DNA from: Candidatus Altimarinota bacterium
GTDB lineage: Bacteria; Patescibacteriota; Gracilibacteria; UBA4473
NCBI GenBank assembly: GCA_021736215.1
Contig: JAIPGI010000003.1
Coordinates: 1-64,000 of the forward strand
Reading direction: 5' to 3'
DNA: 64,000 bases
Part shown: positions 1,384-59,603 of the stretch, piece after piece
Layout of the letters: each line of letters begins with the position of its first letter
Numbering within the stretch: position 1 is the stretch's first letter
Program-made: the position numbers and the translations under genes
The notes under the pieces: model-generated
What the model saw: the letters and a program-made list of their open reading frames with translations, nothing else
The model's database searches: none
What the model was told of the DNA's origin: nothing

Positions 1384-1536
1384 GCCTCGTGTATTATCGC
1401 GAGAAATGTATTTTTGGGAAAGAGGGTTTTGAGAAAATAGGTTATTTTTCCATTTGCAAAACCTTTCAATTTCCGCACAATTTAGATGAAATAATTATTG
1501 TTCTATTTATTCATCAACTCATAAACTTTTCTCACA

Positions 1537-2100
1537 ATGAATGATCTCATCCTCGTCGGTATCCAAGGGTCGGGAAAAGGGACACAAGCCAAGATTTTGG
1601 CCCAGAAGTTTGGTTATCAGATTTTCGAAACAGGAGGGGAACTGCGGGCCATAGCGAAAGAAAATTCGGATCTCGGACATAAAGTGAAGGCTATTACGGA
1701 GCGAGGCGATCTCGTCCCCAATGAAATTGTTATGGAAATCGTAGAACATTTTTTGGCAAACATGGACAACGATACCCCCATTATTTTTGATGGGATTCCT
1801 CGATCGGAAATTCAACGCGAAAGTCTTGAACAATTAATCCTGTCTCATGGACGAGAATTTGCAGTGCTTGAAATTAAGCTTTCCGATAAAGAAGCTATGA
1901 AACGCATGATGTACCGAGCCCAAACAGAAGGGCGAGCAGATGATACTCCAGAGGTGATGAAGAAACGTATTGCCAACTTTTATTCTTATACAGCTCCATT
2001 ACTAGATGTTTGGCGAAAGAAGGGAAGATTGATTTCTATAAATGGAGAACAGAATGTTGAAAGTGTTACGCAAGACATTCTTGATAACCTTCCTCAATGA
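1537..2100 (+). CDS. adk: Adenylate kinase
   Basis: Converts ATP and AMP to two ADP in the cytoplasm. The P-loop GIQGSGKGT is at residues 8-16, the NMP region reads TGGELR, DGIPRS replaces the usual DGFPR, and GRADDTPE matches the GRxDD motif. At 187 residues the long LID insertion with zinc cysteines is absent, so this is a short-LID form. It opens a three-gene operon (adk-HAD-map) coupled by ATGA overlaps. A TTGTTC at 1498, an 18 nt spacer and TAAACT at 1522 would start transcription about 3 nt before the ATG. In many bacteria adk and map follow secY in the spc operon; here secY is 15 kb away. Confidence 0.93.
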   Translation: MNDLILVGIQGSGKGTQAKILAQKFGYQIFETGGELRAIAKENSDLGHKVKAITERGDLVPNEIVMEIVEHFLANMDNDTPIIFDGIPRSEIQRESLEQLILSHGREFAVLEIKLSDKEAMKRMMYRAQTEGRADDTPEVMKKRIANFYSYTAPLLDVWRKKGRLISINGEQNVESVTQDILDNLPQ

Positions 2101-6452: not shown

Positions 6453-6472
6453 AAAAATCTTGTCAAAAAACG

Positions 6473-6498
6473 AAGGCGGGGTAACGTTACCCCGCCTT
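6473..6498. terminator. 26-bp perfect palindrome, possible terminator
   Basis: Arms AAGGCGGGGTAAC and GTTACCCCGCCTT form a perfect 26-bp palindrome between the methyltransferase stop and the csd start. Read on the minus strand it is followed by CGTTTTTTG, so it could end antisense transcription coming from the gene at 7548. On the plus strand it is preceded by an A-run, fitting a bidirectional terminator, but no T-run follows. It could also be an operator. Confidence 0.5.
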
Positions 6499-6510
6499 CC
6501 GAATGAGAAC

Positions 6511-8054: not shown

Positions 8055-8855
8055 ATGAAAATCGCCTCTTGGAACGTGAATGGCATCCGTGCAATTGAAC
8101 GCAAAGGCGAACTGGACAGATTTTTAAAGGCCTATAAGCCCGATATATTGCTCTTGCAGGAGACCAAGGCGAAATCAGACCAACTCTCAGCAGAGCTAAC
8201 AGAACATCCAGAATACGAGCAGTTCTATCATTCCGCTGAGAAGCCAGGATATGCCGGGACAGCGATTTGGATCAAAAAGGAACTATTAATCCCGGGTTCA
8301 AAGAATTCCCAGAACCCGGGATTGGATTTTCAAACAGGAATGCCAAATTGTAACGATGACGAGGGAAGGATTTCCAAAATAGATATCGGAGCGTGGTCTG
8401 TTTTGGGCATATATTTCCCCAATGGAGGGAAGTCGCCTGAAGCATGGAAAGGAAAATTAGAATTCTATGAGCAGTTTTTATCGTATGTAAACATACTTCG
8501 TTCGGAAGGGAAAAAGGTCATTTGGGCAGGAGATGTAAATTGTGCCCATCAGGAAATAGATTTGGCACGACCTCGGGAAAATGATGGGAAAATAGGATTT
8601 CATCCGCGAGAGCGTGCATGGATGAATAAAGTCGTTGACAATGGTTGGGTGGATACTTTCCGAGCTCTCCACGGTGATGAGATAGTATACTCATGGTGGG
8701 ATGTCGTTACGCGATCACGAGAGCGCAATGTGGGCTGGAGAATTGATTATTTTTTTATCGACAAAGCACTTCTTTCTCACGTCAAAAATATCCAATACCT
8801 TACCAGCCAAATGGGATCGGATCACTGTCCCGTGATGATAGAAATTCAGAGTTAA
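8055..8855 (+). CDS. xth: Exodeoxyribonuclease III (AP endonuclease)
   Basis: A DNA repair nuclease cleaving at abasic sites. Active-site residues are visible across 266 residues: N8 (SWNVNGIR), E36 (LLQETK), D160 and N162 (WAGDVNCAH), and D256-H257 (GSDHCPV). Residues about 79-91 are encoded by a palindromic element (8288-8323) inserted in frame in a surface-loop region between the conserved GTA.W and the later core strands. A TAGAAT at 8042-8047 puts the expected transcription start at or next to the ATG. The stop overlaps the convergent 8852 gene. Confidence 0.95.
   Translation: MKIASWNVNGIRAIERKGELDRFLKAYKPDILLLQETKAKSDQLSAELTEHPEYEQFYHSAEKPGYAGTAIWIKKELLIPGSKNSQNPGLDFQTGMPNCNDDEGRISKIDIGAWSVLGIYFPNGGKSPEAWKGKLEFYEQFLSYVNILRSEGKKVIWAGDVNCAHQEIDLARPRENDGKIGFHPRERAWMNKVVDNGWVDTFRALHGDEIVYSWWDVVTRSRERNVGWRIDYFFIDKALLSHVKNIQYLTSQMGSDHCPVMIEIQS
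8288..8323. repeat. Palindromic element family A inside xth
   Basis: A 36-bp element with 12-bp perfect arms (AATCCCGGGTTC and GAACCCGGGATT) around a 12-nt loop. It lies in frame in the exonuclease III gene. A related copy with the same CCCGGGTTC core and a similar loop (GAATTCC versus GAAATTCC) is inside the M24 peptidase gene at 18537-18570. Confidence 0.85.
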
Positions 8856-12682: not shown

Positions 12683-12797
12683 GCCCTCCCCCTTTGAAAA
12701 AGGGGGAAGAGAAGGGGGATTTAAAACCCCTCCACCTCCCCTTTTCAAGGGGAGAGAAATCCACCCCAAACCCCTCCTTTGACAAAGGAGGAGAGGG
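12683..12797. repeat. Cluster of family B palindromes
   Basis: Three successive hairpins: CCCTCCCCC/GGGGGAAGAG, CTCCCCTTTTCAAGGGGAG, and CCCTCCTTTGACAAAGGAGG, joined by GGGGGATTTAAAACCCC. This is the same kind of compound element found inside comF (58921-59094). The short open frames across it encode only Pro/Lys-rich repeat translation and are not genes. Confidence 0.8.
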
Positions 12798-17887: not shown

Positions 17888-17968
17888 GACTCACTTTTCC
17901 TTTAAATATGAGTTTTTTTGTTTCAGCACGAGTCAAGACAGCCGAAACAAAAAAACAAATTTTATGAG

Positions 17969-18721
17969 ATGATAAAAACAAAATCCGAAATTGAAAAAAT
18001 ACGTATTGCCCAAAGCCATGTGGATAGTATTTTGGAAAATGATTTAAAAAATTGGTTGCGAGAAGGCGTTACGGAACAAGAAATTTCTGAAAAACTTGAG
18101 AAGGCTATTTTCGGTGATGGGGCATTTGAACTCGCCTTCCCTTCTATTATAGCCTTTGGCGAAGGAGCAGCAGAACCTCATCATGAACCAAATCAGAGAG
18201 GTTTGCGCCAAGGAGACCCCATTCTGATTGATTGTGGGGCAAAGTTTGAGGGATGGTGCAGTGATTGCACGAGAATGTTTTGCTTAGGACAACCATCTCT
18301 TGAATTTCGAGAAAAATACGAAAAAGTTTTAAAAATACACGAAGAGATTTTACTTCAATTTGTGGCAGGGGCTAAAGTCGCAAGTCTAGATGCTTGGGTT
18401 CGCGAGAGGCTTGGAGATGATGAACAATATTTTATCCATTCATTGGGACATGGTATCGGTCGAGAAGTGCACGAAGAACCGAGAATTACTTCAAAAAAAT
18501 CTCCTACTCAAATTCGAACTCATCAAATTCCTTCTCAAACCCGGGTTCTAGAAATTCCGAACCCGGGTTTAAAAGAACTACAAAAGGGCATGGTGGTCAC
18601 CTGTGAACCAGGATTATATTACAAAGATGCCTTTGGTATCCGCATTGAAGATTTGCTCGTTATTCGAGAAGGAAGGGCAGAAATCCTTACCCAAACTCCG
18701 CGAACATTAATTTTGCTTTAA
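17969..18721 (+). CDS. M24 family Xaa-Pro peptidase
   Basis: A 250-residue metallopeptidase of the M24B (Xaa-Pro dipeptidase/aminopeptidase) group without the usual N-terminal domain. Ligands are D88 and D99 (LIDCGAKFEGWCSDCTR), H161 (SLGHGIGREVHE), E213 (TCEPGLYY) and E227 (GIRIEDLL); FPSIIAFGEGAAEPHHEP is typical of prolidase-like members rather than methionine aminopeptidase. The start ATG at 17969 begins the homology. Residues about 190-202 come from an in-frame palindromic element (18537-18570), placed between the H161 segment and E213, and the preceding THQIPSQ stretch also looks extra. Confidence 0.88.
   Translation: MIKTKSEIEKIRIAQSHVDSILENDLKNWLREGVTEQEISEKLEKAIFGDGAFELAFPSIIAFGEGAAEPHHEPNQRGLRQGDPILIDCGAKFEGWCSDCTRMFCLGQPSLEFREKYEKVLKIHEEILLQFVAGAKVASLDAWVRERLGDDEQYFIHSLGHGIGREVHEEPRITSKKSPTQIRTHQIPSQTRVLEIPNPGLKELQKGMVVTCEPGLYYKDAFGIRIEDLLVIREGRAEILTQTPRTLILL
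18537..18570. repeat. Palindromic element family A inside M24 peptidase
   Basis: 34 bp with 12-bp perfect arms (AAACCCGGGTTC and GAACCCGGGTTT) and a 10-nt loop. The core and loop match the element in xth at 8288-8323. It is read in frame and encodes part of an added loop. Confidence 0.85.
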
Positions 18722-19938: not shown

Positions 19939-20340
19939 ATGTCCTACACTTACTATCGTTCTGATCTCAAAAAAAAAGCACGAGAAAATCGACATTACAT
20001 GTCTGCTCCAGAAAAGAAAATGTGGGAAATTCTTTCTCAAAAAAATATGGGATATAGATTTTTGAGACAAAAACCAATTCACAACTTCATTGTAGACTTC
20101 TATTGCGCTTCACTAAAGCTCATCATTGAGGTTGATGGGAACAGTCATGGGGAGCAAGGAAAATATGACAGGGAAAGAACATTGTTTTTGAACGGTCTTG
20201 GTTTTGAAGTTGTTCGATATTGGAATAACGATGTAATGATGAAACTCGAAGGAGTATATGACGACCTATTCACAAAAATCGAACAAAGAAAAAAGAAATT
20301 ATTTAATATTCAGAAACCCCCTCCAACTCCCCCTTTGTAA
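19939..20340 (+). CDS. DUF559 endonuclease-like protein
   Basis: A 133-residue protein of the DUF559 family, related in fold to very short patch repair endonucleases. Family sequence is complete: LKKKARENRHYMSAPEKKMWEIL, GYRFLRQKPIHNFIVDFYC (catalytic D), LKLIIEVDGNSH (E and D) and GFEVVRYWNNDVM. The last residues, KPPPTPPL and the TAA stop, are encoded by a family B palindrome, so the gene now ends inside the repeat. Palindromes flank it on both sides. The start at 19939 begins the family homology. The biological role of DUF559 proteins is not settled. Confidence 0.88.
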   Translation: MSYTYYRSDLKKKARENRHYMSAPEKKMWEILSQKNMGYRFLRQKPIHNFIVDFYCASLKLIIEVDGNSHGEQGKYDRERTLFLNGLGFEVVRYWNNDVMMKLEGVYDDLFTKIEQRKKKLFNIQKPPPTPPL

Positions 20341-20346
20341 GGGGGA
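20316..20346. repeat. Family B palindrome ending DUF559 gene
   Basis: ACCCCCTCCAACTCCCCC followed by TTTGTAAGGGGGA. It supplies the C-terminal PPPTPPL tail and stop of the DUF559 protein and is inverted relative to the copy at 19891. Confidence 0.8.
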
Positions 20347-20365
20347 AAATAACGAAATAAAAAAC

Positions 20366-31405: not shown

Positions 31406-31472
31406 TCATTCCGGCTTGTCCGGAATCCGGTACAGGATATATCTGATCCTCGACAAGCGAGGATGACGGGAA
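31406..31472. repeat. Family D palindromes (GCTTGTC type)
   Basis: Two hairpins in a row, ATTCCGGCTTGTCCGGAAT and ATCCTCGACAAGCGAGGAT, the second followed by GACGGG. They lie just downstream of the rpsC stop (31476), where they could also end minus-strand transcription. Similar elements are at 49232 and 49336. Confidence 0.8.
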
Positions 31473-34584: not shown

Positions 34585-35171
34585 GCGACAGAGAGGAATA
34601 CGAAATTATTTTTGCTACCTGGAACAGGTCCCTTGATAGCGATAAGATTATTTTCTAGATCAATATGAATAACTTTCACAGATCGAATAGTTTTCTGAAC
34701 ATTTCCATAGTGTCCTGGCATTCGTTTCCCTCGCAGGATTCGACCAGGTTTCGCACACATTCCAACAGAACCTGGTTCTCGATGGTGATGTGAACCATGT
34801 GTTTCGCGACCACGTTGAAAATTATGTCGCTTAATAACTCCTGCGAAACCACGTCCCTTAGAAATTGCAGAAATGGTAACGCTTTCAACTCCTTGCAAAG
34901 ATTCTAATGAAATAGAGTCTCCTTCTTTTATTTCAGTTCCATCTTCCAAACGAAGTTCTTTTGAGAATTTATAGTTCTGATTTTTATTTTTCTTTTTAGA
35001 ACTTCGCTCAAAAGCTCCTAAAACAATAGCAGAATAACCATCTTTCCCAGATGTTTTTACCTGCAAAACAGAATTCTTTGGAGCTTCCAGTACGGTTACA
35101 GGAGACATTTCTCCTGTCTCAGGGGAAATAAAACGTGTCATACCGATTTTTCGAGCGAGGATTCCTTTCAT
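34581..35171 (-). CDS. rplC: 50S ribosomal protein L3
   Basis: uL3, 196 residues, of the usual size. GILARKIGMTRFISPETGEMSPVTVLE and the loop VIKRHNFQRGRETHGSHHHREPGSVGMCAKPGRILRGKRMPGHYG are diagnostic. 2 nt after rpsJ. Confidence 0.97.
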   Translation of the reverse strand: MKGILARKIGMTRFISPETGEMSPVTVLEAPKNSVLQVKTSGKDGYSAIVLGAFERSSKKKNKNQNYKFSKELRLEDGTEIKEGDSISLESLQGVESVTISAISKGRGFAGVIKRHNFQRGRETHGSHHHREPGSVGMCAKPGRILRGKRMPGHYGNVQKTIRSVKVIHIDLENNLIAIKGPVPGSKNNFVFLSVA

Positions 35172-35173
35172 GA

Positions 35174-35569
35174 TTACATCATTTTAATTTCTACGTCGAC
35201 TCCTGCAGGGAGGGTCAAATTTTGAAGTGACTCAATGGTCTGCGTTGTGGGCTCTTTAATATCAATTAATCGTTTGTGAGTACGAATCTCATACTGATCT
35301 CGTGCATCTTTGTGAACAAAGAAGGATCGATTCACTGTGTATCGTTTGATTTTTGTAGGTAATGGTACTGGACCACTTACCAATGATCCTCCGCGTTCAG
35401 CGGTCTCAACAATAGATTTTGCAGCCTCGTCGATTACTGTGTAATCGAATGAGCGTACAATGATACGAACCCTTGTCGCGGTGACTACCTGCGTCTTTTT
35501 TGGAGCAGGAGTTTTTACGACAGTTTTCTTCACATCCTTCTTTGAAGCCGTTGATTTGGTTGTTGCCAT
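35174..35569 (-). CDS. rpsJ: 30S ribosomal protein S10, extended
   Basis: uS10 (also NusE), 131 residues against about 103. The core begins near residue 32 (RVRIIVRSFDYTVIDEAAKSIVETAERGG) and ends LPAGVDVEIKMM. The first 31 residues are a Lys/Thr/Ala-rich, likely disordered extension. It is the first gene of the S10 half-operon, with a promoter at 35597-35624 and a leader of about 21 nt, much shorter than the regulated S10 leader of E. coli. Confidence 0.96.
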   Translation of the reverse strand: MATTKSTASKKDVKKTVVKTPAPKKTQVVTATRVRIIVRSFDYTVIDEAAKSIVETAERGGSLVSGPVPLPTKIKRYTVNRSFFVHKDARDQYEIRTHKRLIDIKEPTTQTIESLQNLTLPAGVDVEIKMM

Positions 35570-35596
35570 GCGCTTTTACTTCAAAAGAGCTCGCGG

Positions 35597-35624
35597 AGTT
35601 TATAAAAAATTCCATTCCTGTCAA
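35597..35624 (-). promoter_or_regulatory. S10 operon promoter
   Basis: On the minus strand TTGACA (35619-35624), a 16-nt spacer, TAAACT (35597-35602). Start point near 35590. Confidence 0.7.
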
Positions 35625-35701
35625 ATATTTTTTCGATTTCCTCTTGAGCATTGGGTTTTTGCACGATTTTTTGTGTCTTGACAAAGAACAGGAAAAAAAG
35701 T

Positions 35702-42412: not shown

Positions 42413-43478
42413 TTTCCCCCCCTCCCAAGCATACATCACCGTCATAAAACACGACTGATTGACCAGGTGAAATTGCACGAACGGGAGAGTGGAATTTCAC
42501 ATGTGCAATATCATTTTTGGTAGAGACGTAGCATGCTACGTCCCTACTGCGATATCGGATTCGCGCTGTACACTCAAACTTTTCACTCGGGGCGTTGCCA
42601 CTAATCCAAGTGAGCTTATGCGCGGTTAATTCTATTCCATCTAGTTTGCTCTCGTCTTGAGAAACGATAATTTGGTTGTCTTTAAAATTTTTCGCAATTA
42701 TAAACCACGGTTTTTCTTCGAACCCGCGAATTCCTCCGATTTGTAAATTTTTACGCTGACCAATGGTATAGAAACTCAAACCAGAATGAGTTCCAACTAC
42801 TTTTTCACTATCAGCATCAATGAAATCGCCAGGTGTTTTCTTTAAATATTTCTGAAGAAAATCGTAGTAATTCCGCTCGCCGATAAAACAAATTCCAGTG
42901 GAATCTTTTTTATCCGCGGTGACAAATCCTTCTTTCTTTGCAATTTTTCGTACCTCAGCTTTCTGCAAATCCTGCAAGGGAAAAATGGCTTGAGCGAGTT
43001 GTTCTTGAGAAATCGCATGGAGAAAATAGGTTTGGTCTTTCTCTTTATCTGTAGGAATGTGAAGTTCATAGAGATTTGTTTTCTCATTCCAGACCTTCTT
43101 GGCATAGTGTCCCGTAGCGATAAAGTCTACTCCCAGTTTTTTTGCTTCGGTCAAAAATGCTCCAAACTTAATATATTTATTGCACAAGATATCAGGATTT
43201 GGAGTTCTTCCGGCTTTATTCTCACTTAGAAAATACTCAAATACATCATTCCAATACTCCTTGGTGAAGTTTGCCGTGTGAAAGGGGATATGAAGATGTT
43301 TGGCTACCTTCTCTGCCATGGCGGCATCTTCAGAAGCGGTACATTCAGGACCATTCTCGTCCCAGTTTTTCATGAAAACACCCAACACCTCATATCCTTG
43401 ATCGATAAGAAGTTTCGCAGCAACAGAACTATCCACGCCACCGGATAAGCCGACGACGATTTTTTTCTTTTTCATCAT
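42405..43478 (-). CDS. mnmA: tRNA-specific 2-thiouridylase MnmA
   Basis: Thiolates U34 of Lys, Glu and Gln tRNAs with sulfur from a desulfurase. 357 residues: PP-loop SGGVDSS (12-18), the catalytic pair C99 (NPDILCNKYIKF) and C197 (STGICFIGER), and GHYAKK. In the C-terminal beta-barrel, residues about 311-320 are encoded by a palindromic repeat (42520-42547) in place of the usual variable loop before VKFHSPVRAISPGQSVVFYDGD. Two ATGs are adjacent (43478 and 43475). It probably follows grpE and a 29-codon gene, with repeats in the gap. Confidence 0.95.
   Translation of the reverse strand: MMKKKKIVVGLSGGVDSSVAAKLLIDQGYEVLGVFMKNWDENGPECTASEDAAMAEKVAKHLHIPFHTANFTKEYWNDVFEYFLSENKAGRTPNPDILCNKYIKFGAFLTEAKKLGVDFIATGHYAKKVWNEKTNLYELHIPTDKEKDQTYFLHAISQEQLAQAIFPLQDLQKAEVRKIAKKEGFVTADKKDSTGICFIGERNYYDFLQKYLKKTPGDFIDADSEKVVGTHSGLSFYTIGQRKNLQIGGIRGFEEKPWFIIAKNFKDNQIIVSQDESKLDGIELTAHKLTWISGNAPSEKFECTARIRYRSRDVACYVSTKNDIAHVKFHSPVRAISPGQSVVFYDGDVCLGGGEIR
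42520..42547. repeat. Palindromic element family C inside mnmA
   Basis: A 28-bp near-perfect palindrome with the core GACGTAGCATGCTACGTC and arms GTAGAG/CCCTAC (one wobble mismatch). It is read in frame in the C-terminal domain of MnmA. Confidence 0.85.
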
Positions 43479-49210: not shown

Positions 49211-49573
49211 TGAACAGTTTTAAATGGCATTGTCATCCTGGCTTGTCCAGGATCAGAAGCGTTGTTATGGTTTTTATTATAAATGCTCTTATACAAATTT
49301 TCGTGCCACTCTGCATTTTATTTCTGTACGCACAGGATTCCGGACAAGCCGGAATGACGGGAAGGTGCTCATTCTCCCTCAATGAAAAGGGAATTCTCAA
49401 TGTAATCGGGACGGCGGGAATTATTGACAAAACTCATCTCAAACATACAATTCCCCCGTTCTTTTGAGGAGGGAAAACTTAGTGATGAGAGTAGTTCGGC
49501 TTTAGCAGAGTTGGTCGAAGAAAGAATCCCATAAAAGATAGTTCTTATAACAAATAAAAATTACCACTTAAAT
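49211..49573. other. Intergenic region with two family D palindromes
   Basis: No gene is supported. The stretch holds ATCCTGGCTTGTCCAGGAT (49235-49253) and ATTCCGGACAAGCCGGAAT (49338-49356), oriented oppositely and about 85 bp apart, with GACGGG next to the second. The open frames across it are translations of these repeats. Confidence 0.75.
49235..49356. repeat. Pair of GCTTGTC-type palindromes
   Basis: Two 19-bp palindromes with 7-bp arms and CTTGT/ACAAG loops in inverted orientation. They match the hairpins at 31406-31472 and flank about 85 bp of unique sequence. Confidence 0.75.
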
Positions 49574-58796: not shown

Positions 58797-59603
58797 TTAT
58801 TTCCCTCCCCTCGCAAAAACAACGGCATCCACCCGAGAAACTCCACACTGTTTAAGAACTTTGGCGGCTGCATTAAGGGTGGCGCCGCTGGCGACAACAT
58901 CATCAATGAGGATGTATCGCCCCTCCCTCTTTAATAAAGAGGGAGATGGTCCTCGACTCTGAGGTGAGCTTCGCTCGGACTCGAAGAGAGGGAGATTTTT
59001 ATTTCTCTCCCCTTGAAAAGGAGAGTTGGAGGGGTTTAAATCCCCCTGTCCGCCTAAGGCGGACTTTCCCTCGCTTTTACCAAAGGGGGAGGAGAACGAA
59101 AATGCATCTCGGATATTTTGGAGTCTCGCTTCACGAGATAATTTGGCTTGTTGAAAGGTGCGTTTATGACGCTTGAGAAGGTGTTGGATTTGGGCTTCAG
59201 GAATGCGTTTTTGAAGAGCCTGAGCGATTAAATCTGCTTGGTTGAACCCCCGCCAAAATTTTCTCGTCCAATGGAGAGGAATAGGAACAAGAATGGAATT
59301 CATAAAAAAATCCTTTCCTACCCGCAGAATAATTTCTTCTGCCATGATATCTGCAAGTTGGGTGAATCCTCGAAATTTAAAAAGCTCTACGAGCTTCTCT
59401 GTCGTAGGGTCATAGTATTTCACAGCGGCATGAATATTTTCCAAGTATTCAAAGGATGCCTCGTTTGGAGGAGCGGGCGAAAATTTTCGATGCTGCGGGC
59501 AAAGCCATGCCCCTTCTTGTTTGCAAATGATGCATTTGGGCGGGAAAAGGGCATCCAAAAACCACGACCAAGCACGGTGGATGCTTTGTACAACCTTTTT
59601 CAT
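58797..59603 (-). CDS. comF: ComF-like phosphoribosyltransferase with repeat insert
   Basis: Competence-associated protein of the ComF/GntX family. 268 residues: zinc-type cluster C24, C27, C35 with H38 (PPKCIICKQEGAWLCPQH), then the PRTase core and the PRPP loop ILIDDVVASGATLNAA. Residues 171-228 are a 58-residue insertion encoded by palindromic repeats (58921-59094), placed between RLQNIRDAFS and RYILIDDVV; the flanking domain reads normally. The start at 59603 is taken because it begins the family N-terminus. Together with dprA it suggests DNA uptake. Last gene of the rpsP-khpA-VirB2-like-comF unit. Confidence 0.9.
   Translation of the reverse strand: MKKVVQSIHRAWSWFLDALFPPKCIICKQEGAWLCPQHRKFSPAPPNEASFEYLENIHAAVKYYDPTTEKLVELFKFRGFTQLADIMAEEIILRVGKDFFMNSILVPIPLHWTRKFWRGFNQADLIAQALQKRIPEAQIQHLLKRHKRTFQQAKLSREARLQNIRDAFSFSSPFGKSEGKSALGGQGDLNPSNSPFQGERNKNLPLFESERSSPQSRGPSPSLLKREGRYILIDDVVASGATLNAAAKVLKQCGVSRVDAVVFARGGK
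58921..59094. repeat. Family B palindromes inserted in comF
   Basis: About 174 bp of compound palindromes: CCCTCCCTCTTTAATAAAGAGGG, CTCCCCTTGAAAAGGAG, CCGCCTAAGGCGG and flanks with GGGGGAG. Read in frame they give residues 171-228 of ComF. The same building blocks occur at 12683-12797 and 42285-42370. Confidence 0.85.

Follow-up and report, generated by a model that had tools for sequence, protein, structure and literature searches.

A REP-like palindrome in frame within genes of unrelated enzymes in a Gracilibacteria genome, and its probable cognate RAYT

A 34-bp palindrome lies in frame in the gene of an M24 peptidase in a Candidatus Altimarinota bacterium (Gracilibacteria), and a related palindrome lies within xth of the same stretch of DNA. 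How did one repeat come to be part of two unrelated enzymes? The stretch analyzed (the window) makes up the opening 64 kb of contig 4 in a 1.01-Mb genome (G000). The window features concerned are as follows.

17969 to 18721, plus strand: M24 family Xaa-Pro dipeptidase/aminopeptidase-like gene (Pfam Peptidase_M24, E 6.8e-55)
18537 to 18570, no strand assigned: palindromic element, M24 copy (34 bp; arms, 12 bp; loop, 10 nt)
8055 to 8855, plus strand: xth, exodeoxyribonuclease III, host of the second copy (TIGR00633, E 7.9e-76; Pfam Exo_endo_phos)
8288 to 8323, no strand assigned: palindromic element, xth copy (36 bp; arms, 12 bp; loop, 12 nt)

The M24 copy (AAACCCGGGTTC-TAGAAATTCC-GAACCCGGGTTT; hairpin energy, −20.3 kcal/mol) is perfectly paired along its arms and encodes, in frame, (Q)TRVLEIPNPG(L), within a protein loop bounded by HEEPRI and LQKGMVVTCEPG. 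The gene is a table 11 open reading frame (ORF) open from position 17918, with ATG 17969 as the likely start. The xth copy (AATCCCGGGTTC-AAAGAATTCCCA-GAACCCGGGATT) encodes, in frame, LIPGSKNSQNPGL. TGA does not serve as a common sense codon here: table 11 leaves the long ORFs intact, and TGA terminates 4 of the 35 long ORFs in the window. An earlier note on this DNA had described the M24 palindrome and its second copy in xth, sharing both the arm core and the type of loop. The perfect in-frame palindrome, its xth partner, and the common arm core (same family) all stand; the loops resemble each other only loosely. The copies belong to two subfamilies (AAA..TTT with loop 10 in M24; AAT..ATT with loop 12 in xth). 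As also described there, the first arm is read in different frames (x-Arg-Val in M24, Pro-Gly-Ser in xth), and the second encodes Asn-Pro-Gly-Leu (NPGL) in both.

A general repeat search of the 64-kb window did not bring out the family, because the window holds two copies only. Across the genome, the pattern CCCGGGTTC-N(4-14)-GAACCCGGG had 49 exact copies (reversed-pattern control, 0), and a search with relaxed arms found 55; 200 shuffles of the window gave 0 copies, and together with the reversed control this ruled out a chance origin. Stretches around the matches yielded 61 copies when small arm changes were allowed, and 2 further copies with GATC arms bring the total to approximately 61 to 63. 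The exact pattern occurred once among the 19 other genomes of the family. Most elements have arms that are self-complementary, or nearly so, around a CCCGGG core, and conservation extends to the arm sequence itself (the word), beyond the pairing. Loops are 10 nt (n = 18), 11 nt (n = 18), or 12 nt (n = 20) long, with a few shorter. In the flanks of the 61 copies, the consensus TTYYCAA[T/A] (TTYYCAAW) stands on both sides with an invariant A, and a GTAG (GT[AG]G) or CGTC tag at the hairpin foot was absent from both sides. Neighboring copies share loop sequences (permutation p 0.009), which is consistent with spread over a short range. Two subfamilies were observed. In one, the outer bases are AAT..ATT, the loop is 12 nt long, and most copies lie outside genes; in the other, they are AAA..TTT, the loop is 10 nt long, and most copies are intragenic. 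Loops of 12 nt are underrepresented in genes (3/27 versus 17/34 outside, p 0.002), and AAA..TTT outer bases are associated with the 10-nt loop (p 0.0005). One possibility is that the two subfamilies differ in age.

The M24 gene has orthologues in 18 of the 19 family relatives. The comparison that the earlier note had proposed showed a short loop at the element position in orthologues from other genera (G006, G007, G013, G016, and G017; five genomes, four genera), so the sequence is not ancestral in all relatives, the finding that would have spoken against insertion. The nearest solved structures are Xaa-Pro dipeptidases; in the alignment with one of these (PDB 1wn1), residues 174 to 203 are unmatched (7 residues versus 30 here). 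In the sister species of the same genus (G012), the loop is also enlarged and holds one arm of another word, AAGACCGGTCTT, so permissiveness of the M24 loop either preceded the present copy or was independent of it. No target-site duplication was identified: the M24 orthologues are too diverged, and selection restricts net inserts in genes to multiples of three, from which duplications are not readable. In-frame elements come in lengths of 34, 35, and 36 bp, and no fixed target-site duplication was established.

In-frame placement of the element is common. Out of 61 copies, 27 lie in frame within ORFs, nearly all of which have Pfam matches or orthologues (at least 26 in real genes), and 34 were not placed in genes. 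The hosts are as follows.

Two copies each: LigA, UvrD, KsgA, RibD
Other enzymes: RibE, RibF, IleRS, ValRS, TruB, CarA, xth, M24
Further hosts: an M23 peptidase, a GATase_5 protein, an SLH protein (3), the RAYT (REP-associated Y1-type transposase) itself, and a few less well-characterized proteins

Codon alignments located shorter, unoccupied versions of several sites. The cleanest is UvrD site 2, empty in four relatives (31 to 32 residues versus 43 here); loops in relatives measure 29 residues versus 42 at KsgA site 1, 27 versus 42 at KsgA site 2, 30 to 31 versus 43 in CarA (three genera), and 32 to 33 versus 42 in IleRS (three genera). In the 26 intragenic copies, CCCGGG is read as Pro-Gly in 49 of 52 arms. 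Equally likely stop-free frames would give 11.0 copies with both arms so read; the observed number is 23 of 26, which 0 of 200,000 simulations reached, and the M24 copy is one of the three exceptions. That arms are kept almost only in Pro-Gly frames helps explain the NPGL ending shared by M24 and xth; stop codons alone were rejected as its source, since the bias remains when only open frames are counted. On its simplest reading, the bias suggests selection for a turn-forming, uncharged insert.

A candidate for the enzyme that moves the element is found in the same genome.

Contig 13, 34734 to 35678, minus strand: RAYT ORF (positions 1335 to 2279 of locus L031, which is contig 13:33400 to 37100), directly upstream of recF

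The ORF matches Pfam Y1_Tnp (E 2.1e-7) and NCBIfam REP_Tyr_transpos (E 8.9e-15, under that model's cut-off), and a PDB profile search with the RAYT alignment returned Escherichia coli TnpA-REP (4er8, E 6.2e-7) as the only significant relative. In the alignment, NHFH (the HUH motif) is invariant, as are Y131 and N135, the latter followed by P or A (G in one sequence); further motifs are PVFEGRF (FE) and a Tyr motif of the form YIEYNP/YILQNA. Copies of the element lie in frame within this gene between the HUH and Tyr motifs, more, partly decayed, follow the Tyr motif, and approximately four lie upstream, while the ORF stays open. Positions 1335 to 2501 of L031 (the gene and its upstream region) contain approximately ten intact-to-decayed CCCGGG palindromes, and much of the ORF is repeat derived. 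The earlier note had preferred mobile insertion to chance, given two unrelated enzymes with one repeat; the copy number, the near-absence of the exact pattern in 19 relatives, the short M24 loops, and a RAYT accompanied by the same element all bear this out.

CCCGGG is absent from the vicinity of two other RAYT-like genes (L047 and L048) and of an IS200 gene (L046), and these were rejected as mobilisers for that reason. The L047 REP-type transposase gene contains GAAGGCGGGATTGGCCAATCCCGCCTTC in frame, which is related to a 28-bp perfect palindrome (GAAGGCGGGGTAACGTTACCCCGCCTTC, window 6472 to 6499) at the start of an aminotransferase-V ORF; L047 and this palindrome may be a second REP/RAYT pair in the genome. 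The RAYT ORF of L048 (contig 3; ORF 1447 to 2004, minus strand) is of the WQ type and holds an in-frame GTAGGGACAATCCTAGGATTGTCCCTAC, resembling the GTAG "double foot" REP of subclass 2.4 genes; the two are probably a third pair. Hairpins of the type TTCCGGACAAGCCGGAA occur in inverted orientation at window positions 31406 to 31431 and 49332 to 49357, and the motif stands twice more beside the IS200-type transposase gene (L046). Repeats of the type CCCCCTTT..AAAGGGGG were seen at 12685 to 12793, 20315 to 20349, and 58922 to 59047, and similar sequences encode PPFSKGE-like stretches in proteins of this genome and its relatives (e.g., a protein in locus L046 and KsgA of G012). A near-perfect, GTAG REP-like palindrome in mnmA (GTAGAGACGTAGCATGCTACGTCCCTAC, window 42520 to 42547) was first taken as an insertion; it encodes RYRSRDVACYV, which we take to be a native MnmA motif, and is probably not one.

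RAYT orthologues in seven relatives likewise adjoin two-arm palindromes, some of which interrupt the gene in frame (G012 and G003), and the words are mostly other than that of G000. The RAYT-adjacent words are as follows.

G012: GGATTCGTATCC
G006: GAACCCGGGATC
G007: GAACCCGGGTTC
G002: CATCCCGGGATG
G008: GAGTTCGAACTC
G003: GAGACCGGTCTC
G004: GAGTTCGAACT

An independent scan of GTDB genomes collected nine Gracilibacteria-like RAYT loci (L127 to L135), several of them from the same genomes. All 26 palindromes with arms of at least 11 bp in these loci lay within 350 bp of the RAYT match, and the rest of each locus had none. Of these palindromes, 23 were of the word type, and three were terminator-like. 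Genome-wide word counts track the local RAYT word, and the match is good, not exclusive. CCCGGG-type copies number 55 in G000, 8 in G007, and 7 in G006, while GATTCGNATC occurs 16 times in G012 and 0 times elsewhere. Pairs of AGTTCGAACT occur 29 times in G008, 12 in G003, 5 in G004, and 5 in G017; pairs of AGACCGGTCT, 10 times in G012 and 7 in G003. The mismatches are G003, which has its AGTTCGAACT pairs though its RAYT word is GAGACCGGTCTC; G012, which has its AGACCGGTCT pairs though its RAYT word is GGATTCGTATCC; and G017, which has its AGTTCGAACT pairs and no RAYT match.

The words also turn over at the same protein loops. When aligned with G000, the sister species G012 shows exact palindromes of other words in the corresponding place at UvrD site 1, KsgA site 1, both RibD sites, IleRS, and RibF, and imperfect ones at both LigA sites and in M24. 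Approximately 0.05 exact copies would be expected by chance (rough arithmetic from 19 sites of ~100 nt and ~26 exact copies per Mb). Apparent decayed CCCGGGTTC copies remain in its CarA and RibE. RibF of G000 carries GAACCCGGGTTC-TGCA-GAACCCGGGTTC, the outer frame of a copy with a 4-nt loop, and at the same codons the sister species carries AAGACCGGTCTT-TACA-AAGACCGGTCTT; an unusually short loop common to both (TGCA/TACA) between different arms suggests, in this one case, rewriting in place.

An element in and around a RAYT, its word repeated genome-wide, and palindromes of other words in the same loops of a sister species point to a RAYT/REP system with intragenic insertions. As judged from sequence, the palindrome is very probably a REP-like nonautonomous mobile hairpin, likely multiplied by the cognate Y1 (HUH) RAYT/TnpA-REP of the same genome. 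The hairpin would form in single-stranded DNA at the replication fork or during repair, where the RAYT would recognize the stem, cut the hairpin, and insert it at other single-stranded sites, frequently close to the donor. Gene-breaking insertions would be lost; survivors would sit in a tolerant surface loop, be stop free, and add a multiple of three bases, giving an insert of 11 to 13 residues, mostly with one Pro-Gly pair per arm. Each species' RAYT would have its own arm word; when the word changed, old copies would decay, and copies of the new word would settle in the same permissive loops. With no GTAG or CGTC foot, and FE in place of WQ, recognition by this RAYT would have to differ from the canonical mode.

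Nearly self-complementary 10- to 12-mers with a CCCGGG core, scattered across the genome, look like paired dyad sites, and the copies could be binding sites (operator, nucleoid, or repair) of a dyad-recognizing protein, kept by selection, with the RAYT association incidental. Such sites would not be expected to cluster in and around the RAYT both here and, mostly with another word, in seven relatives, nor to lie in frame in unrelated enzymes, with word and sites turning over between sister species; we consider this explanation very unlikely. Multiplication by selection for an RNA function (mRNA hairpins, terminators, or processing sites) rather than by transposition would suit the RNA folding energy of each window copy (approximately −20 kcal/mol) and the 34 copies not placed in genes, but 27 of 61 lie within ORFs, where a terminator would harm, and both the arms conserved as a word, not just in pairing, and the RAYT association leave it highly improbable. 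Least credible of all is a relative of the Rickettsia palindromic elements (RPE) arrived by transfer, which behave alike in standing in frame in housekeeping genes (as far as cited in PMC3733652) but differ in sequence and in the CGTC tag absent here (a comparison of descriptions); the words are largely private to each Gracilibacteria species, and a local RAYT suffices without transfer.

The mobile-hairpin reading is best placed against published REP systems. GTAG/CGTC REP/RAYT systems share with the present one 20- to 40-bp palindromes, many per genome, near Y1 transposases and with some in ORFs (Di Nocera et al. 2013, PMC3733652); here, by contrast, the foot tag is absent (TTYYCAAW flanks), the arms are mostly nearly self-complementary, 27 of 61 copies lie in genes, and the word differs in most related species examined. 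REPs within genes are known from DNA repair genes, DNA ligase, UvrD/Rep helicase, tRNA synthetases, and TruB, and two Xanthomonas species have different REPs at about the same recB site (PMC3733652). TnpA-REP subclass 2.4 (Quentin et al. 2018, PMC6006769) resembles the present system in its low-copy RAYT flanked by REPs and in the in-frame REPs that separate the HUH motif of the RAYT gene from its Tyr motif. The present RAYT differs in having FE (PVFEGRF) instead of WQ, YIEYNP or YxxQNA instead of YIxNNP, and no GT[AG]G foot; given FE for WQ and the missing GTAG foot, we did not assign the system to subclass 2.4. Its FE comes closest to FQ, the motif of subclass 2.1, in which the same survey detected no REPs. 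REPINs (Bertels and Rainey 2011, PMC3116915) are likewise dispersed by a RAYT and combine two inverted REP units in one hairpin, whereas the unit here is the 12-bp arm alone, often itself palindromic, with a 2- to 12-nt loop. RPE, to the extent that PMC3733652 cites them, are likewise palindromes tolerated and translated in frame in functional proteins; by the same account they have other sequences, RPE-4 and RPE-6 are of the CGTC type, and some (RPE-1) are longer. In a literature search of incomplete coverage, no relevant paper on REPs of Patescibacteria or Gracilibacteria came up. Both intragenic REPs and REPs within RAYT genes are already in the literature; this lineage has its own variant, in which nearly every related species uses another word.

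The finding links palindromes that encode protein, which in Rickettsia and a few other bacteria have long been regarded as orphan selfish DNA, with one particular transposase resident in the genome. The host lineage has a tiny genome in which intergenic spaces are few. The species-by-species pairs of transposase and word form a natural series for how a RAYT recognizes its hairpin, and re-occupation of the same loops presents a mobile element reshaping surface loops of essential enzymes. More speculatively, and rather improbably in our view, Gracilibacteria might have a distinct RAYT/REP class, with a short self-complementary arm as unit and no GTAG guide, in which the arm word changes along with the RAYT and old copies are in part rewritten where they stand, RibF being the candidate case. 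If so, surface loops of core enzymes would be repeatedly re-occupied, and through the RAYT the proteome would keep acquiring Pro-Gly loop insertions.
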